Shown piece after piece: positions 26,207 through 41,572 of a stretch of DNA of 64,000 nucleotides. Source of the stretch: Geothrix sp. Lineage in GTDB: Bacteria > Acidobacteriota > Holophagae > Holophagales > Holophagaceae. The first letter of the stretch is position 1; each line of letters opens with the position of its first letter. Where the stretch lies: positions 1,550,001 through 1,614,000 of the forward strand of contig NZ_JAHRYQ010000001.1 in NCBI RefSeq assembly GCF_020622065.1, read 5' to 3'. The notes under the pieces were generated by a model. The model was not told where the DNA came from. It did not search any database and saw nothing but the letters and a program-made list of their open reading frames with translations. Position numbers and translations under genes: made by a program.

Positions 26207-26417
26207 ACTGCCTCACGAACAGCGTTCGCGTCCCCCATTCGGTTTGCATCGGAGCGACCCGTTTCAGCTGCAGAAAACCCGACACCATCCGCCCATTTCC
26301 GGTCTGCCCATTCAAATCGCCCCGTTCAATGGCCCCACGGTAAAATCAACACTTACACCCCTCTCAAACCGGATTAGGCGAACTCCGAACACCTTCGTCC
26401 CCACCGTCCAATTTAAA
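26207..26417. other. Array-edge intergenic region without gene
   Basis: No credible coding frame or integrase-like sequence. An ATTAGGC box lies at 26373-26379, 45 bp before the first perfect GTTAGGC. The region might hold a decayed attI or attC, but I cannot show a folded site. Confidence 0.4.
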
Positions 26418-26424
26418 GTTAGGC
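26418..26424 (+). repeat. First GTTAGGC core box (left end of array)
   Basis: A perfect R'-type box without a recognisable attC arm to its left. It marks the left boundary of cassette 1 and is the position an attI would occupy. Confidence 0.6.
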
Positions 26425-26662
26425 TTACCCAGGATTTCTCTCGGTTGGGCTGCTGATACCGTTCGCCCGCCAAACCAACACTGTTCGGCGTGGCCCACCC
26501 AGAAACATCAGAACTCTTGTCATCATCATCCATCCTGGTCGGTACCCTGGGTCCACGCCCAGCATTTCAAGCCTTCTGTTCACCGAACTCTCTTCGTTCT
26601 TTCCACCTTCAAGAACGCTTGGAATCGCAGTTCGGGGCGCTCTCAATCAACAACCTCGAAGT
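26425..26662 (+). mobile_element. Cassette 1: non-coding family A, copy 1
   Basis: No convincing gene. It shares with five other cassettes the core ACCGTTCGCCCGCC, CACCCAGAAAC, a CTGGG-TCCACG-CCCAG hairpin and CGTTCTTTCCA-type sequence. This copy is the most divergent at its left end. The GTG-started frame of 78 codons here is not kept in other copies. Confidence 0.75.
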
Positions 26663-26728
26663 GCCTAACCAATCGTTCAAGCGGACCCCGGCGCAAGCGC
26701 CTGGTCCGCTTAACTCAAATCGTTAGGC
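26663..26728 (+). repeat. attC 1 (short, 66 bp)
   Basis: GCCTAAC to GTTAGGC, with arms AAGCGGACC and GGTCCGCTT pairing perfectly. Short type, found only with family A cassettes. Confidence 0.9.
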
Positions 26729-26743
26729 GCTTCCGAGTCTCCG

Positions 26744-27109
26744 ATGACCAATTCTCAAATCATCATGCTCCTTCTCATCGCGGTCCTATTCCTCGTCATT
26801 TCGATATATAGCGTGATTCGTTTCGATAGGCTTTTAAGAATTGAATACGAAACAAATCGAGAGACTTGGATAGCTGATGGCAAGCCAAAGGGCTCGTTTT
26901 GGTGGGCACCGGGGGAGGATTCATATCAGAACGCCATGGCCGCCCGGTATTTTATGTTTAAGGTCATTTTTAAAACACCTGATTGGATAAATCAAAATGA
27001 GACCGCGAAAGATTATTTACGGCAACTGCGAATTGCCGCTCTAATCTGGAGCATAGCCTACCTTCTGTTTTTCATACTCTTTCTATACAGTGCTGCAACC
27101 AGCGCCTAA
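26744..27109 (+). CDS. Cassette 2: small two-helix membrane protein
   Basis: 121 residues starting MTNSQIIMLLLIAVLFLVIS. Membrane helices lie at about 5-25 and 95-117, with a polar loop rich in aromatic residues between (GSFWWAPGEDSYQNAM). The stop codon TAA lies inside the attC core box GCCTAAC, so gene and site overlap. The same gene appears again as cassette 27 with no visible change in protein or attC. Base composition is A+T-rich. No family recognised. Confidence 0.75.
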   Translation: MTNSQIIMLLLIAVLFLVISIYSVIRFDRLLRIEYETNRETWIADGKPKGSFWWAPGEDSYQNAMAARYFMFKVIFKTPDWINQNETAKDYLRQLRIAALIWSIAYLLFFILFLYSAATSA

Positions 27110-27227
27110 CCCTCAGCTCAACTCGGACCCCGCCTGCATTGCCTTCCGCTCTTTCTCTTCATTCGTCTTCCTCGGCTCCGCTCAGCGCCTCGGCGCAGGC
27201 GGGGCCGGTTAGCCACATTCGTTAGGC
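27104..27227 (+). repeat. attC 2 (long, 124 bp)
   Basis: GCCTAAC to GTTAGGC; AAC/GTT arm type. It has the variant CTTCATTCGTCTTCC loop that is also found in attC 27, its duplicate. Confidence 0.92.
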
Positions 27228-27232
27228 CGCTG

Positions 27233-27724
27233 ATGAAACGCCTTCTCCCAATTGCATGCGCCCTGGTACTCGGCTGTCAGCCAAGCAAGGTTGATGTGTC
27301 CTCAGCTAATCACCCATTGCTGGCGGATTATAAATCCTCCCAGAGCTTCACTCCATCATGGAGTACCATTTATCATCCATCTGTTCATCAATGGAATCAG
27401 TCCATCAATCTGGGCAATGGCCTGACTCTACTGGTTACCGCCACTGGTTGGATTAGTGGTGAATTTCAGGGGCAGTTCTCTGATGAATCCACACCACGAA
27501 CAATCGGCCATCCAGGCGACTACGTCTATCCTTGCGATTTAAGATATAACGCCTCGAAGAAACTCCTTTTTGCCAAAGCAAGTGGCCTCGCTGGTGGTAT
27601 CGAGAGGGTCACAGTGGTCTTCGAATACGATGTCCAACAGAGGCGGCTGCTTCATACCTATCACGTTGCCGAGAACCTTCTCCCACCAGATCCAACGCCT
27701 ATAACTCAGCGGCCTAACCCTTAG
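27233..27724 (+). CDS. Cassette 3: lipoprotein of unknown function
   Basis: 163 residues. The N-terminus MKRLLPIACALVLGCQPS is a lipoprotein signal with lipobox LVLGC, so the mature protein should be lipid-anchored at Cys15. The rest is beta-rich with two Gly-Asn and Trp-rich segments (SINLGNGLTLLVTATGWISGEF). The stop TAG is six bases beyond the attC core box, so the last residues RPNP are encoded by attC. It is duplicated without visible change as cassette 26. Function unknown. Confidence 0.8.
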   Translation: MKRLLPIACALVLGCQPSKVDVSSANHPLLADYKSSQSFTPSWSTIYHPSVHQWNQSINLGNGLTLLVTATGWISGEFQGQFSDESTPRTIGHPGDYVYPCDLRYNASKKLLFAKASGLAGGIERVTVVFEYDVQQRRLLHTYHVAENLLPPDPTPITQRPNP

Positions 27725-27835
27725 CTCAACTCGGACCCCGCCTGCATTGTCTTCCGCTCTTTCTCTTCGTCTCGCTTCCTCGGCTTCGTTCATCGCCTCA
27801 GCGCAGGCGGGGCCGGTTAGCTTCATTCGTTAGGC
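27712..27835 (+). repeat. attC 3 (long, 124 bp)
   Basis: GCCTAAC to GTTAGGC; AAC/GTT arm type. It matches attC 26. Confidence 0.92.
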
Positions 27836-28074
27836 CTCACCAACTCTCTTCCCCTGCTGGTCCGCAGTTACCGTTCGCCCGCCGAACCAACACTGTTCGC
27901 GGTGGCCCACCCAGAAACACTAAGACTCTTGTCATCATCATCCATCCTGGTCGGTAACCTGGGTCCACGCCCAGCATTTCAAGCCTTCTGTTCACCGCGT
28001 TCTCTTCGTTCTTTCCACTTTCAAGAACGCTTGGTATCGCAACTCGGGTCGCTCGTTAACATCAGCCTCGAAAT
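27836..28074 (+). mobile_element. Cassette 4: non-coding family A, copy 2
   Basis: Base for base the same as cassette 18 (34948-35186), including the attC. It starts CTCACCAACTCTCTTCCCC. It has no ribosome site before any frame. The CTGGG-TCCACG-CCCAG hairpin lies at about 27959-27974. Confidence 0.8.
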
Positions 28075-28140
28075 GCCTAACCATTCGTTCAAGCGGACCC
28101 AAGCGCAAGCGCCTGGTCCGCTTAACTTCTTCCGTTAGGC
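28075..28140 (+). repeat. attC 4 (short, 66 bp)
   Basis: GCCTAAC to GTTAGGC; AAGCGGACC/GGTCCGCTT arms. Same as attC 18. Confidence 0.9.
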
Positions 28141-28149
28141 GCCAACCTC

Positions 28150-28641
28150 ATGCTCCCTCAACTCGCCACCATACTAAACTCCCAAAAACCCGGCGCCGCA
28201 CTGATCAACGCTATCGACAAATTGCTTTCTGAAGATCGGTATCTTTTTTCATGCGACGCAAATGAGCGCTCATTGACTCACCGTCTTGCTTGCCACATTC
28301 AATGTGAATTTACAGATTGGCACGTCGACTGCGAATACAACCGCGATATCAACTCAAGTGATGAGGTCCATTTTAGGAAAAGGCTAATCGGCTTGGCGTT
28401 GGACCCCAATTCTGATGACACCGAGGGAAAGACTGTGTTCCCCGACATCATCGTGCATAAACGAGGTAGTGCTAATAACCACCTCGTCATTGAGGTTAAA
28501 AAGTCGAATAGCTCCGTTTCACGAAATATCGATCTCGACAAACTCCAAGCCTACAAATCCGAATTAGGCTATTCGCACGCCTTGTTTCTTGTATTCAACA
28601 CAGGCCAAGCCCCATCCTTGGAGCACGCCGAATGGAGGTGA
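28150..28641 (+). CDS. Cassette 5, gene 1: PD-(D/E)XK nuclease-like protein
   Basis: 163 residues. FPDIIVHKRG followed by LVIEVKKS gives a clear PD-(D/E)XK layout with Asp99, Glu115 and Lys117; Glu39 in NERSLTHRLA could be the helical acidic residue. This fold is used by restriction and repair endonucleases and by other DNA-handling enzymes. No DNA-binding or specificity domain is present, so the target is unknown. Its stop codon overlaps the ribosome site of the next gene, so the two genes share one cassette and are probably co-translated. Confidence 0.7.
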   Translation: MLPQLATILNSQKPGAALINAIDKLLSEDRYLFSCDANERSLTHRLACHIQCEFTDWHVDCEYNRDINSSDEVHFRKRLIGLALDPNSDDTEGKTVFPDIIVHKRGSANNHLVIEVKKSNSSVSRNIDLDKLQAYKSELGYSHALFLVFNTGQAPSLEHAEWR

Positions 28642-28642
28642 C

Positions 28643-28945
28643 ATGAAAAATAGGATGAGAATCGCGATTCAAGTGGCTGGCGCGCTTCTTCTCTTGGCCT
28701 TCATTCGTCCTGCGTGGAAGACGGAAGGTTACACTTGGAATCAACGAGGGCACTTTATCTCTATGCCTGACTGTGGCACTGAGTGGTCCTTTTTGTGGGT
28801 ATCCAAAGGAGTATTCGAGAATACTGGCGGCAACTATACTCATTGGACCGTGACGCGCATTGACTGGGCAAGGATGGCTCCCATTCTCGTAATTATTTTC
28901 GTCGTATCAGGTCTGGTCTTTGTTTCCATGAAAGACAAGGCGTAG
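28643..28945 (+). CDS. Cassette 5, gene 2: small membrane protein, paralog of cassette 16
   Basis: 100 residues from the ATG at 28643, preceded by GGAGGT (28634-28639). Two membrane helices (about 5-22 and 75-95) flank a loop with GYTWNQRGHF and DCGTEWSFLWVSKG. It aligns over its full length with the gene at 34200-34505 (shared LLAFIRPAWKT, DCGT.W.FLW, IDW and VKDK/MKDK end). It is the only clear two-gene cassette with two full-size genes. Function unknown. Confidence 0.75.
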   Translation: MKNRMRIAIQVAGALLLLAFIRPAWKTEGYTWNQRGHFISMPDCGTEWSFLWVSKGVFENTGGNYTHWTVTRIDWARMAPILVIIFVVSGLVFVSMKDKA

Positions 28946-28953
28946 GTAGAGGC

Positions 28954-29077
28954 GCCTAACCCTCCGCTCAAGTCGGACCCCGCCTGCATTGCCTTCCGCT
29001 CTCTTTCAACATCTTGCTATCCCGGCTCCGCTCATCGCCTCGGTGCAGGCGTGGCCGCTTAGCTGCTTTCGTTAGGC
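28954..29077 (+). repeat. attC 5 (long, 124 bp)
   Basis: AAG/CTT arm type (GCTCAAGTCGG with CCGCTTAGC). Confidence 0.92.
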
Positions 29078-29089
29078 GCCAGGAGATCC

Positions 29090-29641
29090 ATGGTCGATCT
29101 ACAAAAAAACCATCCATTTGAGCCAGAGCACACCCAAGAAGTGCCTGAAGAGCTCTTTGCGGAAATAGGGTGTCGACTTGTCCTGCTCCAAGATCTAGAA
29201 ATGTTCATCGCATATGTCTCAAAGGTCGTTTTTGCAGAGAATGCTCAAAAAGCGAAAGAAGCCATATTGAATGCCGACACCATGACACTCGGCCAGCTAA
29301 TGGGGCTTCTGAGAAAGAACGTTGAGATAGAAGAATCATTCGACGAATGCCTAAAAAGGACTTTGGGCGCTCGAAATTTGTTCGTCCATGAGTTTTCGCA
29401 TGAGTTCAATATCCATACTGAAGCCGGGGCTAAAGAGGCAATTAAATTTCTCGTGGACACCATGGATGACCTCGAAGAATCCATGCAGGTAATGAAAGCC
29501 GTCATTGTATCGTTCGGCCGTAGCAGATCCGTTGAAGACAAGGAACTTGAAGATTACTGGCGAAAGCATGGGGATTTGAGTCAGCTTGAATTAAAGTATA
29601 TTCCTCGAGCATCAAAATCACTTAAAAAGAAAACGCCTTAA
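29090..29641 (+). CDS. Cassette 6: helical protein with HEPN-type RNxxxH motif
   Basis: 183 residues, AGGAG ribosome site four bases before the ATG. Entirely helical by composition. ARNLFVHEF places Arg95, Asn96 and His100 in the R-N-x3-H pattern that marks the RNase centre of HEPN proteins. HEPN domains are common in toxin-antitoxin and defence systems, where they cut RNA. No antitoxin-like partner (MNT or similar) is in this cassette. The C-terminal tail is Lys-rich. HEPN assignment rests on one motif and helical content only. Confidence 0.55.
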   Translation: MVDLQKNHPFEPEHTQEVPEELFAEIGCRLVLLQDLEMFIAYVSKVVFAENAQKAKEAILNADTMTLGQLMGLLRKNVEIEESFDECLKRTLGARNLFVHEFSHEFNIHTEAGAKEAIKFLVDTMDDLEESMQVMKAVIVSFGRSRSVEDKELEDYWRKHGDLSQLELKYIPRASKSLKKKTP

Positions 29642-29690
29642 GTGTGCATATACCTTTCGTGCTGCTCGATCATAAATTCCCAGGTCAGCC

Positions 29691-29814
29691 GCCTAACCCT
29701 CAGCTCAACTCGGACCCCGCCTGCATTACCCTCCGCTCTCTCTCATCGTTCCGCTTCCTCGGCTTCGTTCATCGCCTCGGTGCAGGCGCGGCCGGTTAGC
29801 CACATTCGTTAGGC
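29691..29814 (+). repeat. attC 6 (long, 124 bp)
   Basis: GCCTAAC to GTTAGGC; AAC/GTT arm type. Confidence 0.92.
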
Positions 29815-30440: not shown

Positions 30441-30668
30441 GTAACCATCACTATTGCGCCTCTGGTCCGCAGTTACCGTTCGCGCCGCATTTCAGTACCG
30501 TTCGCGGTGGCCCACCCAGAAACGGCTGAGCATCTGCCATCGTCGAGGTAACCTGGGTCCACGCCCAGCAGTTCAAGCCTTCTTCCTGCCTCACTCGTTC
30601 TTTGCTCTTCAATTCTCAGAACTGTCGGCGCGGCAATTCGGATCGTTCTCGCACCCATTTCACGCCGC
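30441..30668 (+). mobile_element. Cassette 8: non-coding family A, copy 3
   Basis: Shorter copy with internal deletions. It keeps GTTACCGTTCGC, CACCCAGAAAC and the CTGGG-TCCACG-CCCAG hairpin. The GTG frame open in copies 1, 2 and 5 is stopped early here by a TAA. Confidence 0.75.
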
Positions 30669-30734
30669 GCCTAACCTCTCGCTGCAGCGGACCCAGGCGC
30701 CAGCGCCTGGTCCGCTGAGCTTCATTCGTTAGGC
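30669..30734 (+). repeat. attC 8 (short, 66 bp)
   Basis: Arms GCAGCGGACC and GGTCCGCTGAGC pair; loop GCGCCAGCGC. Confidence 0.9.
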
Positions 30735-34167: not shown

Positions 34168-34199
34168 TTCAGAGCACTCTTCGCTTGCATGGAGAAAAA

Positions 34200-34505
34200 A
34201 TGAAAAGAAGAACAGTAATTGCAAGCCAGGTGGCTGGAATTCTTCTTATTTTGGCGTTTATACGTCCAGCTTGGAAGACAGATGGAATCACCTGGAGCGA
34301 CGAGTATCGGCGAGAGGTCTATATAAATGATTGTGGAACACAATGGACCTTCCTATGGAAACCCAAAGGAAGTTACACAAATAGAAAAAATAACGAGGTT
34401 CGCTGGGAAACAACTCATATTGATTGGGAAAAAATGCTTCCTGTTTTAGTTTTGATTGCTGCAGTCGCAAGCCTCGTGCTGGTGTCTGTAAAAGATAAAT
34501 ATTGA
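34200..34505 (+). CDS. Cassette 16: small membrane protein, paralog of cassette 5 gene 2
   Basis: 101 residues from the ATG at 34200 (GGAG a few bases upstream); a longer frame from 33996 would run through the preceding attC and is rejected. Two membrane helices with LILAFIRPAWKTDG at the first and DCGTQWTFLWKPKGSY in the loop. It aligns end to end with the gene at 28643. Here it stands alone without the nuclease-like partner. Codon use is strongly A+T-rich. Confidence 0.75.
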   Translation: MKRRTVIASQVAGILLILAFIRPAWKTDGITWSDEYRREVYINDCGTQWTFLWKPKGSYTNRKNNEVRWETTHIDWEKMLPVLVLIAAVASLVLVSVKDKY

Positions 34506-34516
34506 ACCATAAATGC

Positions 34517-34640
34517 GCCTAACCTTTCGCTCAACTCGGACCCCGCCTGCATTGCCTTCCGTTCTTTCTCAGCATCTCACTTCCTCGGCTCCGCTCAGCA
34601 CCTCGGTGCAGGCGGGGCCGGTTACCTTCATTCGTTAGGC
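34517..34640 (+). repeat. attC 16 (long, 124 bp)
   Basis: AAC/GTT arm type with GGTTACC end. Confidence 0.92.
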
Positions 34641-34881
34641 ATCACCAAGTTTCTTCCCCTGTTGGTCCGCTGTAACCGTTCGCCCGTCGAACCAACACTG
34701 TTCAGCCTGGCCCACCCAGAAACACCAAGACCCTTGTCATCATCATCCATCTTGGTCGGCAACCTGGGTCCACGCCCAGCTTTTCTAACCTTCGGATTTG
34801 CACTTCCTGAAATCCTGTTCTTTCCCCTTTCAATACTAGGTGCCGCGTATTCGGGTCGTTCTCTTACTCAAATCGCGCCGT
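34641..34881 (+). mobile_element. Cassette 17: non-coding family A, copy 4
   Basis: Tandem with copy 5. Conserved 5' half and hairpin; the 3' half (CGGATTTGCACTTCCTGAA) matches copy 6 better than copies 2 and 5. Confidence 0.75.
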
Positions 34882-34947
34882 GCCTAACCCCTCGCTCAAG
34901 CGGACCCCGGCGCAAGCGCCTGGTCCGCTTAGCTGCTTTCGTTAGGC
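34882..34947 (+). repeat. attC 17 (short, 66 bp)
   Basis: AAGCGGACC/GGTCCGCTT arms. Confidence 0.9.
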
Positions 34948-35186
34948 CTCACCAACTCTCTTCCCCTGCTGGTCCGCAGTTACCGTTCGCCCGCCGAACC
35001 AACACTGTTCGCGGTGGCCCACCCAGAAACACTAAGACTCTTGTCATCATCATCCATCCTGGTCGGTAACCTGGGTCCACGCCCAGCATTTCAAGCCTTC
35101 TGTTCACCGCGTTCTCTTCGTTCTTTCCACTTTCAAGAACGCTTGGTATCGCAACTCGGGTCGCTCGTTAACATCAGCCTCGAAAT
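34948..35186 (+). mobile_element. Cassette 18: non-coding family A, copy 5
   Basis: Same 305-bp unit (with attC) as cassette 4, 7.1 kb away, with no difference that I can see. Confidence 0.8.
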
Positions 35187-35252
35187 GCCTAACCATTCGT
35201 TCAAGCGGACCCAAGCGCAAGCGCCTGGTCCGCTTAACTTCTTCCGTTAGGC
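35187..35252 (+). repeat. attC 18 (short, 66 bp)
   Basis: Same as attC 4. Confidence 0.9.
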
Positions 35253-36289: not shown

Positions 36290-36530
36290 CTCACCAACTT
36301 TCTACCCCTGCTTGTCCGCAGTTACCGTTCGCCCGTCGAACCAACACCGTTCGCAGTGGCCCACCCAGAAACACTAAGACTCTTGTCATCATCATCCATC
36401 CTGGTCGGCAACCTGGGTCCACGCCCAGCTTTTAAAGCCTTTGGGTCCACAGTTTCTGAAGGTCTGTTCTTTCCCTTTCAAATCTAGGAGCCGCGAATTC
36501 GGGCGTTCTCTCTCCCTCGCATCTCGCCGT
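36290..36530 (+). mobile_element. Cassette 21: non-coding family A, copy 6
   Basis: Starts CTCACCAACTTTCTACCCC. Keeps GTTACCGTTCGCCCG and the CTGGG/CCCAG hairpin; the 3' half resembles copy 4. Confidence 0.75.
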
Positions 36531-36596
36531 GCCTAACCTCTCGCTCAAGCGGACCCAGGCGCAAGCGCCTGGTCCGCTTAGCTTCATTCGTTAGGC
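36531..36596 (+). repeat. attC 21 (short, 66 bp)
   Basis: AAGCGGACC/GGTCCGCTT arms. Confidence 0.9.
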
Positions 36597-39135: not shown

Positions 39136-39140
39136 CGCTG

Positions 39141-39632
39141 ATGAAACGCCTTCTCCCAATTGCATGCGCCCTGGTACTCGGCTGTCAGCCAAGCAAGGTT
39201 GATGTGTCCTCAGCTAATCACCCATTGCTGGCGGATTATAAATCCTCCCAGAGCTTCACTCCATCATGGAGTACCATTTATCATCCATCTGTTCATCAAT
39301 GGAATCAGTCCATCAATCTGGGCAATGGCCTGACTCTACTGGTTACCGCCACTGGTTGGATTAGTGGTGAATTTCAGGGGCAGTTCTCTGATGAATCCAC
39401 ACCACGAACAATCGGCCATCCAGGCGACTACGTCTATCCTTGCGATTTAAGATATAACGCCTCGAAGAAACTCCTTTTTGCCAAAGCAAGTGGCCTCGCT
39501 GGTGGTATCGAGAGGGTCACAGTGGTCTTCGAATACGATGTCCAACAGAGGCGGCTGCTTCATACCTATCACGTTGCCGAGAACCTTCTCCCACCAGATC
39601 CAACGCCTATAACTCAGCGGCCTAACCCTTAG
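39141..39632 (+). CDS. Cassette 26: lipoprotein, duplicate of cassette 3
   Basis: The 163-residue protein is the same as that at 27233-27724, including the LVLGC lipobox and attC-encoded RPNP tail. The attC that follows is also the same. Only the neighbouring cassette order differs: here it precedes the MTNSQ cassette, whereas at 27 kb it follows it. Confidence 0.8.
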   Translation: MKRLLPIACALVLGCQPSKVDVSSANHPLLADYKSSQSFTPSWSTIYHPSVHQWNQSINLGNGLTLLVTATGWISGEFQGQFSDESTPRTIGHPGDYVYPCDLRYNASKKLLFAKASGLAGGIERVTVVFEYDVQQRRLLHTYHVAENLLPPDPTPITQRPNP

Positions 39633-39743
39633 CTCAACTCGGACCCCGCCTGCATTGTCTTCCGCTCTTTCTCTTCGTCTCGCTTCCTCGGCTTCGTTCA
39701 TCGCCTCAGCGCAGGCGGGGCCGGTTAGCTTCATTCGTTAGGC
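39620..39743 (+). repeat. attC 26 (long, 124 bp)
   Basis: Same sequence as attC 3. Confidence 0.92.
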
Positions 39744-39758
39744 GCTTCCGAGTCTCCG

Positions 39759-40124
39759 ATGACCAATTCTCAAATCATCATGCTCCTTCTCATCGCGGTC
39801 CTATTCCTCGTCATTTCGATATATAGCGTGATTCGTTTCGATAGGCTTTTAAGAATTGAATACGAAACAAATCGAGAGACTTGGATAGCTGATGGCAAGC
39901 CAAAGGGCTCGTTTTGGTGGGCACCGGGGGAGGATTCATATCAGAACGCCATGGCCGCCCGGTATTTTATGTTTAAGGTCATTTTTAAAACACCTGATTG
40001 GATAAATCAAAATGAGACCGCGAAAGATTATTTACGGCAACTGCGAATTGCCGCTCTAATCTGGAGCATAGCCTACCTTCTGTTTTTCATACTCTTTCTA
40101 TACAGTGCTGCAACCAGCGCCTAA
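39759..40124 (+). CDS. Cassette 27: small membrane protein, duplicate of cassette 2
   Basis: The 121-residue protein and its attC match those at 26744-27227 throughout. Two membrane helices; stop TAA inside the core box. The 5' leader from the GTTAGGC box (GCTTCCGAGTCTCCG) is also the same, so the whole cassette was copied as a unit. Confidence 0.75.
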   Translation: MTNSQIIMLLLIAVLFLVISIYSVIRFDRLLRIEYETNRETWIADGKPKGSFWWAPGEDSYQNAMAARYFMFKVIFKTPDWINQNETAKDYLRQLRIAALIWSIAYLLFFILFLYSAATSA

Positions 40125-40242
40125 CCCTCAGCTCAACTCGGACCCCGCCTGCATTGCCTTCCGCTCTTTCTCTTCATTCGTCTTCCTCGGCTCCGCTCAG
40201 CGCCTCGGCGCAGGCGGGGCCGGTTAGCCACATTCGTTAGGC
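40119..40242 (+). repeat. attC 27 (long, 124 bp)
   Basis: Same sequence as attC 2. Confidence 0.92.
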
Positions 40243-40984: not shown

Positions 40985-41572
40985 ATGAATGTTCGAATGA
41001 TCCTCATGTTGGCCCTGTCCTGCCTTGCATCTATGCTCCAGGCGCAGCCACCGGCCCGCCCGAAGGTTATTGCCTCTAATTTGTTGATCTACCCAGTTCC
41101 TGCTCGGTCACTCGGGATTTCAGGTGTTGTTTTGGTCTCGGTAGTTACTGATGGGTCCAAGCCGGTGGCTGTGGATTGCCTGTCGGGACCGCCCACATTA
41201 GTTGAATCCTCGTTGGCATTCGTTAAATCGTGGCGGTTTGTTCCCCACAAACGCACTGAGTTCACGGTCGAGCTTACATACAAGCTGGTTGAGCCACCCT
41301 CAGAAGAAGAAAACCCAGAGAGCGCTCCCACTCAAGAGACCCTTACCTTATTCCTGCCTGCAAGGGCTACCATTCAATCAACGATCATTCCGAATGGCTG
41401 CGCGGGTCTTGAAGTGATAGTGCCCCCAAGAAATAGCTTTGCCGTTCTAGGGCGGTCTAACCCTCCGCTCAACTCGGACCCCGCCTGCATTGCCTTTCGC
41501 TCTCTCTCAGCTCCCCGCTTCCTCGACTCCGCTCATCGCCCCGGTGCAGGCGGGACCGCTTGGCTTTTTTAG
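40985..41572 (+). CDS. Cassette 29: secreted protein with TonB C-terminal-like domain
   Basis: 195 residues as read. Signal peptide (MNVRMILMLALSCLASMLQAQ), then a TonB-C-like domain (LGISGVVLVSVVTDGSKPVAV and LAFVKSWRFVPHKR, about 45-100). The frame is not stopped before the attC, so about 38 residues (from SNPPLNSDP on) are attC-encoded, with TAG ending at the first base of the final core box. TonB-C domains usually contact outer-membrane receptors; without a membrane anchor this may be a periplasmic adaptor. Confidence 0.65.
   Translation: MNVRMILMLALSCLASMLQAQPPARPKVIASNLLIYPVPARSLGISGVVLVSVVTDGSKPVAVDCLSGPPTLVESSLAFVKSWRFVPHKRTEFTVELTYKLVEPPSEEENPESAPTQETLTLFLPARATIQSTIIPNGCAGLEVIVPPRNSFAVLGRSNPPLNSDPACIAFRSLSAPRFLDSAHRPGAGGTAWLF

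Follow-up and report, generated by a model that had tools for sequence, protein, structure and literature searches.

A Geothrix integron cassette with a PD-Lambda-3_A-family nuclease gene and an orphan membrane protein gene

A 937-bp integron cassette in Geothrix sp. DNA carries a nuclease gene of the PD-Lambda-3_A family (gene A) followed by a gene for an orphan membrane protein (gene B), and on balance we take the two genes to be of separate origin, a free-standing nuclease and an unrelated membrane protein that accompanies it as a passenger. Most likely two cassettes have been fused here, one with a probable anti-phage DNase and the other with the passenger. The window (the whole 64,000-bp stretch of DNA that was analyzed) is C1:1550001–1614000 of a 3.35-Mb genome in two contigs, C1 and C2; the features on which the argument turns are as follows (window positions):

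28141–29077, + strand: the 937-bp gene cassette, running from just behind the preceding attC through its own attC (attC map)
28075–28140, + strand: 66-nt attC belonging to the upstream cassette, in which no gene is evident; the R' end of this attC is the left boundary
28954–29077, + strand: the cassette's own attC, 124 nt
28150–28641, + strand: gene A, putative PD-(D/E)XK nuclease of the PD-Lambda-3_A family, 163 aa (homology, motif, predicted fold)
28634–28641, + strand: ribosome-binding-site-like GGAGGTGA for gene B, within the final codons and the stop codon of gene A (read from the sequence)
28643–28945, + strand: gene B, orphan membrane protein, 100 aa, with a hydrophobic helix at each end
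34168–34640, + strand: single-gene cassette with a gene B paralogue
34200–34505, + strand: the gene B paralogue, 101 aa, 54–55% identical

The cassette lies in an array of 29 attC-like sites between 26663 and 45710 of the window, all in the same orientation, of which 23 are 123–127 nt and six are 66 nt long; their arms are GCCTAAC/GTTAGGC, with the single exception of one site with GTCTAAC. Hairpin folding on the bottom strand gave z −4.2 for the 66-nt site at 28075–28140 (0 of 200 shuffled sequences were equally good) and z −2.3 for the 124-nt site at 28954–29077 (4 of 200). Between the two attC recombination points, 28141–29077 contains genes A and B and one attC, so the two genes belong to a single cassette, as a previous reading of the sequence without database searches (the sequence-only reading) had proposed in placing both in one mobile unit. 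A complete integron integrase gene (TIGR02249, 463 bits against a cut-off of 265) is present at C2:619549–620493, elsewhere than the array. Among the matches listed, for which 40 of 92 candidates were scored, similar attC DNA forms further clusters at C1:846348–858833, C2:621436–628891, C2:1005769 and C2:1195781–1196865, and among these listed clusters only the one from C2:621436 neighbors the integrase.

The nuclease half of the sequence-only reading stands. PADLOC matches residues 6–162 of gene A to PD-Lambda-3_A (PDLC03986; E 5.5e-53, 177 bits), tblastn finds relatives with 33–50% identity at 26 loci in bacterial and archaeal genomes, and the Asp99/Glu115-x-Lys117 core that had been pointed out is all present in the 163-aa frame at 28150–28641 on the + strand. 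In an alignment of 22 rows (gene A with its relatives from 21 genome loci; of the 26 found, L022, L023, L025, L028 and L032 were left out) D99 and E115 are kept in every row and K117 in 21, the remaining row having A. E39, R40, E62, Y63, N64, P98, D99, I100, H103, E115, K118 and Y141 are invariant; the reading frame of gene A is intact and carries every one of these residues. Pfam gave only sub-threshold matches (NOV_C, VRR_NUC and AHJR-like; E 0.12–0.17) and NCBIfam none; two PHROGs matches (E 0.21 and 0.31) are at chance level, and a second PADLOC match, Cas7_IIId (E 0.0044, 14 bits), was also judged to be chance.

Structure prediction gave gene A a PD-(D/E)XK-type, restriction-endonuclease-like alpha-beta fold. 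The AlphaFold model (pLDDT 84.8, pTM 0.81, with residues 65–93 mostly below 50) has, in order, helix 39–53, strands 58–61, 100–103 and 110–118, helix 125–139 and strands 141–150 and 156–162; E115 and K117 lie on strand 110–118 and D99 at the start of strand 100–103, so that the core sheet carries the D ... (D/E)-x-K motif. Its best VIA-align neighbors are mostly restriction-endonuclease-like proteins, with 3ijm at the top (Z 8.0, 2.7 Å over 103 residues), then EcoRV (Z 7.8) and, lower down, DUF820-type nucleases (Z 7.1) and Hjc-type nucleases/resolvases (Z 6.0–6.4), where Z below 8 can reflect a common arrangement. It counts against our preferred reading that Foldseek returned nothing at E ≤ 0.001 for this model and that an unrelated-looking chain, that of the Rep15:Rab3B complex, scores Z 6.5 in the same VIA-align list; a search of solved structures with gene A also gave no match. 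Gene A most likely encodes a metal-dependent DNase; DNA cleavage is what we infer, a PD-(D/E)XK fold alone being no proof of it.

Gene B is best started at the ATG at 28643, one base past the stop of gene A. The earlier claim that the second gene starts inside the end of the first needs a TTG start at 28589 with a coding overlap, and the ATG is preferred over that TTG because GGAGGTGA lies upstream of it and the paralogue has a homologous ATG; since gene A ends at 28641, the coding regions are separate and only the ribosome-binding-site-like run overlaps gene A. Two hydrophobic helices were found in gene B as previously noted (19-residue means of 1.78 and 2.62), and the segment between them is possibly beta-rich (modelled as strands, in a low-confidence model with pLDDT 55.6). 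The paralogue claimed elsewhere in the array is the 34200–34505 gene, and over 100 codons it differs from gene B at 34, 29 and 61 first, second and third codon positions, respectively, a pattern as would be expected under purifying selection. Its cassette has no other evident gene, which means that the membrane protein has no fixed link to the nuclease.

No match to gene B was found in Pfam, PADLOC, NCBIfam or PHROGs, nor in plasmids, phages or viral contigs, and among 47 genomes of the genus only the source genome matches. The partial matches that did appear were judged to be chance: one in the source genome (E 0.335, interrupted by a stop), two in 396 phylum genomes (E ~0.009 and 0.010, over 45 and 55 of 101 positions), and part of catalase-peroxidases among solved structures (E 0.5 and above).

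The E. coli abortive-infection system PD-λ-3 is reportedly due to Vassallo et al. (2022; PMC9519451). In excerpts of PMC13190303 it is classed as abortive infection, with lysis of the infected cells but no second round, and a table in a review gives a PD(D/E)XK nuclease for it (PMC10952713). Gene A is homologous to component A over nearly its full length, with 49% identity to enterobacterial A and the same catalytic motif. In E. coli, however, A is followed by PD-Lambda-3_B, a HEPN-type protein (TIGR02391/Hypoth_Ymh, also matching a HEPN model), whereas here the following gene, gene B, encodes a membrane protein without detected similarity and without a PADLOC match, and no component B stands next to A. 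The A then PD-Lambda-3_B order occurs on some enterobacterial plasmids and E. coli chromosomes; DNA of the pair was matched in 44 of 5,426 E. coli genomes, and 41 of these matches cover at least 80% in one place (10 of 46 records were listed). The PD-Lambda-3_B profile (PDLC03987) was not found in the source genome in a search whose positive control scored E 4e-180, nor was TIGR02391, in a profile run without a positive control. Membership of the cassette in a complete PD-λ-3 system was rejected because component B was not found in the genome.

A tblastn search with the HEPN-type protein placed PD-Lambda-3_B beside A in only two of 37 loci, both on enterobacterial plasmids, so A often stands without it; across 30 genomes or records that carry A, the profile matches somewhere in four, three times outside the examined flank. 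Since the profile search finds no such partner in this genome, gene A would work in this host without a counterpart of the E. coli HEPN protein. The 183-aa protein of the next cassette (29090–29641) has an R-N-L-F-V-H motif that looks HEPN-like by eye (PD-Lambda-3_B has R-N-P-L-A-H), and it was considered as the partner in a hidden, split PD-λ-3; it was dropped because it has no Pfam or PADLOC match and only weak relatives among Pseudomonas plasmid proteins (28–32% identity over 46% of its length).

Outside the source genome, tblastn matches gene A in 48 plasmid records (best 49% identity, in Enterobacteriaceae; query coverage is 80% or more in 36) and in one phage record (28% identity), and viral contigs gave one match (54%) with the alignment as query and none with the single gene A sequence. 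The family is present in seven of 396 phylum genomes, the source genome included and two of the matches being only ~50 aa long, so its distribution is patchy. Neighbors were examined at 37 loci, of which 36 match gene A at E ≤ 0.01. In two archaeal type I loci a gene A relative lies between a methylase gene and hsdS (L016:3935–4477 and L027:3911–4366), and in a candidate-phylum bacterium one follows a D12 methyltransferase and precedes hsdS (L031:3962–4618); in all three loci hsdS is the gene directly after the relative. Other relatives are near a TIR-TPR gene (L020), a caspase fragment (L022), HicA (L007) or RES (L029); brxL is ~3.6 kb upstream of the relative on plasmid L033, and Qat genes are close to the relative in L037 and also to the E. 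coli pair in L055. Scans covered 20 neighbor proteins, chosen by eye with no background count, and six of these had no Pfam match or only sub-cut-off ones. A strict search for attC-like sites with exactly complementary arms found none around the 37 loci. In Anoxybacillus gene A is present as a tandem duplicate (L024:3974–4453 and L024:4600–5184).

By analogy with PD-λ-3, and from the genes beside some of its relatives, gene A probably has a defence role, and its product would cut DNA during phage infection or the entry of foreign DNA. The choice of the 20 neighbor proteins by eye, with no background count, weakens this view, as does the position of some relatives beside ordinary genes, a glycosyltransferase-like gene in L009 and an apparent serC in L011, both by eye. 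Those two loci favor the idea that A is a nuclease outside phage defence (for example in DNA repair or selfish cassette maintenance) with B as a passenger. We consider that quite unlikely: PD-λ-3, which of the systems with data is the closest, is assigned to abortive infection in the excerpts of PMC13190303, and the spread over seven of 396 phylum genomes together with carriage in 48 plasmid records suits an accessory mobile trait.

How gene B came to stand behind gene A can be pictured from the junction. Gene B would once have had a cassette of its own, as its paralogue still does; deletion of the attC between two cassettes would have joined them at the end of gene A, linking gene A's final W codon to gene B's leader and leaving gene B's ribosome-binding site in the last codons of gene A. 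The paralogue's leader and the A/B junction have in common ATGGAG, five positions, and then ATGAAAA, and gene A ends E-W-R, with R in that column in none of the 21 other rows. This fusion step is plausible, as read from few bases, although the common motif is short and could be due to chance, and although a spacing of one nucleotide combined with a good ribosome-binding site is typical of selected, translationally coupled pairs. The two genes would now be moved, and perhaps translated, together, on the simplest view with no joint action, and we infer that A and B do not interact.

That spacing, the shared cassette and the gene B ribosome-binding site inside A are the main support for a different explanation, in which A and B form a genuine defence system of two genes, with B in place of the HEPN partner of PD-λ-3, serving as infection sensor, as membrane holder of the nuclease or as an antidote that keeps it inactive. 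Gene B is intact and its changes relative to the paralogue are mostly at third codon positions, which also agrees with this explanation, as does the variety of A-family neighbors, a few of which are of membrane type: in L035 the relative is followed, after 201 bp, by a 125-aa protein containing three hydrophobic stretches, and ORFs directly upstream of the relative, hydrophobic by eye, are present in L016 (107 aa, between hsdM and A), L013 and L015. Nonetheless, no gene B homologue stands beside A in any of the 37 loci, those four included, the gene B profile (200–205 bits in its own genome, by construction) was not found in the 30 A-bearing genomes or records, and the paralogue's cassette has no nuclease. 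The sequence-only reading had compared the two genes to a phage-defence or toxin pair; its nuclease does belong to a published anti-phage family, but the pairing fails because no co-occurrence was found and the gene B paralogue travels alone. A lineage-specific A–B pair is possible, since gene B is an orphan and some of the loci have little flank (L006, L019, L025, L029 and L048–L052), and overall we regard a functional two-gene system as a lesser possibility than the fusion of a free-standing nuclease with a passenger.

Gene A could instead be a relic kept in the array, silent or inactive. In 27700–29700 no promoter-like site was found where 1.8 are expected, so the cassette may be silent at its present place, and the nine bases between the attC end and the gene A ATG contain no ribosome-binding-site-like run. 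With no promoter-like site nearby and the integrase on the other contig, not adjoining the array, native expression of the cassette is doubtful. Passages of a review state that integron cassettes store anti-phage genes, which away from the first position may be weakly expressed, with exceptions (PMC12409362). The family can also decay: in L034 (Klebsiella plasmid NZ_CP143509.1), near an IS5-like element, the A frame is interrupted and the HEPN-type gene truncated, and at least 18 listed plasmid records fall in the 47.5% identity class of this lineage, with no gene annotated there. Against a relic stand the intact frame of gene A and its full set of alignment-invariant residues, and we think this explanation very improbable.

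Kiwa combines a nucleic-acid-acting protein with the membrane. PADLOC, whose library should include Kiwa models, assigns neither A nor B to a SNIPE or Kiwa (KwaA/KwaB) family. Kiwa occurs in Xanthomonas integrons according to portions of PMC12444791, where a reference title calls it membrane-embedded. SNIPE (PD-λ-1), as outlined in excerpts of PMC13190303, joins a GIY-YIG nuclease and DUF4041 to a membrane anchor and so likewise combines a nucleic-acid-acting protein with the membrane, whereas gene A encodes a PD-(D/E)XK protein.

Anti-phage genes in integrons are already in print, and passages of the review PMC12409362 credit Darracq 2025, Getz 2025 and Kieffer 2025 with anti-phage integron cassettes that have experimental protection. 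The present cassette resembles these as a small defence-like gene between attC sites in a chromosomal array; it differs in that their protection is experimental and a defence role here is a prediction, and in that the integrase is on a different contig from this array. The excerpts of the PD-lambda-3 literature returned by our search make no link to integrons. The novelty lies in a nuclease of the A family carried as an integron cassette, next to an orphan membrane protein and lacking the partner known for it.

The A family has many different neighbors: archaeal type I loci, the HEPN-type protein of E. coli and this integron cassette. If A protects alone, the role of the HEPN partner in PD-λ-3 needs rethinking, and a protein of 163 aa, a size that fits into integron cassettes, would be the minimal unit; if gene B is necessary, it would be a new type of partner for a known defence nuclease. 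An unlikely but more novel variant is that the cassette is a compact mobile form of PD-λ-3 in which the HEPN partner has been exchanged for a membrane protein, with B holding or gating the nuclease at the inner membrane. The nuclease would then act on incoming DNA or after membrane damage, and the A family would be a nuclease module with interchangeable partners (HEPN, type I restriction subunits or a membrane protein).

The array contains further cassettes of note. A family of ~300-bp cassettes without an evident gene, each ending in a 66-nt attC, is found at:

26409–26728 (left bound not set)
27836–28140
30441–30734
34641–34947
34948–35252
36290–36596

The longest ATG/GTG frame in the five bounded members is 14–78 aa, and the member directly upstream of the nuclease cassette (27836–28140) is 100% identical to that at 34948–35252. 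Two neighboring cassettes occur twice, at 26729–27835 and, in the opposite order, at 39136–40242 (100% and 97.6% identical), which points to copying or shuffling of cassettes in the recent past. A TonB C-terminal domain is present in the cassette protein at 40985–41572 (E 4.5e-06; 27.4 bits, cut-off 24.6).
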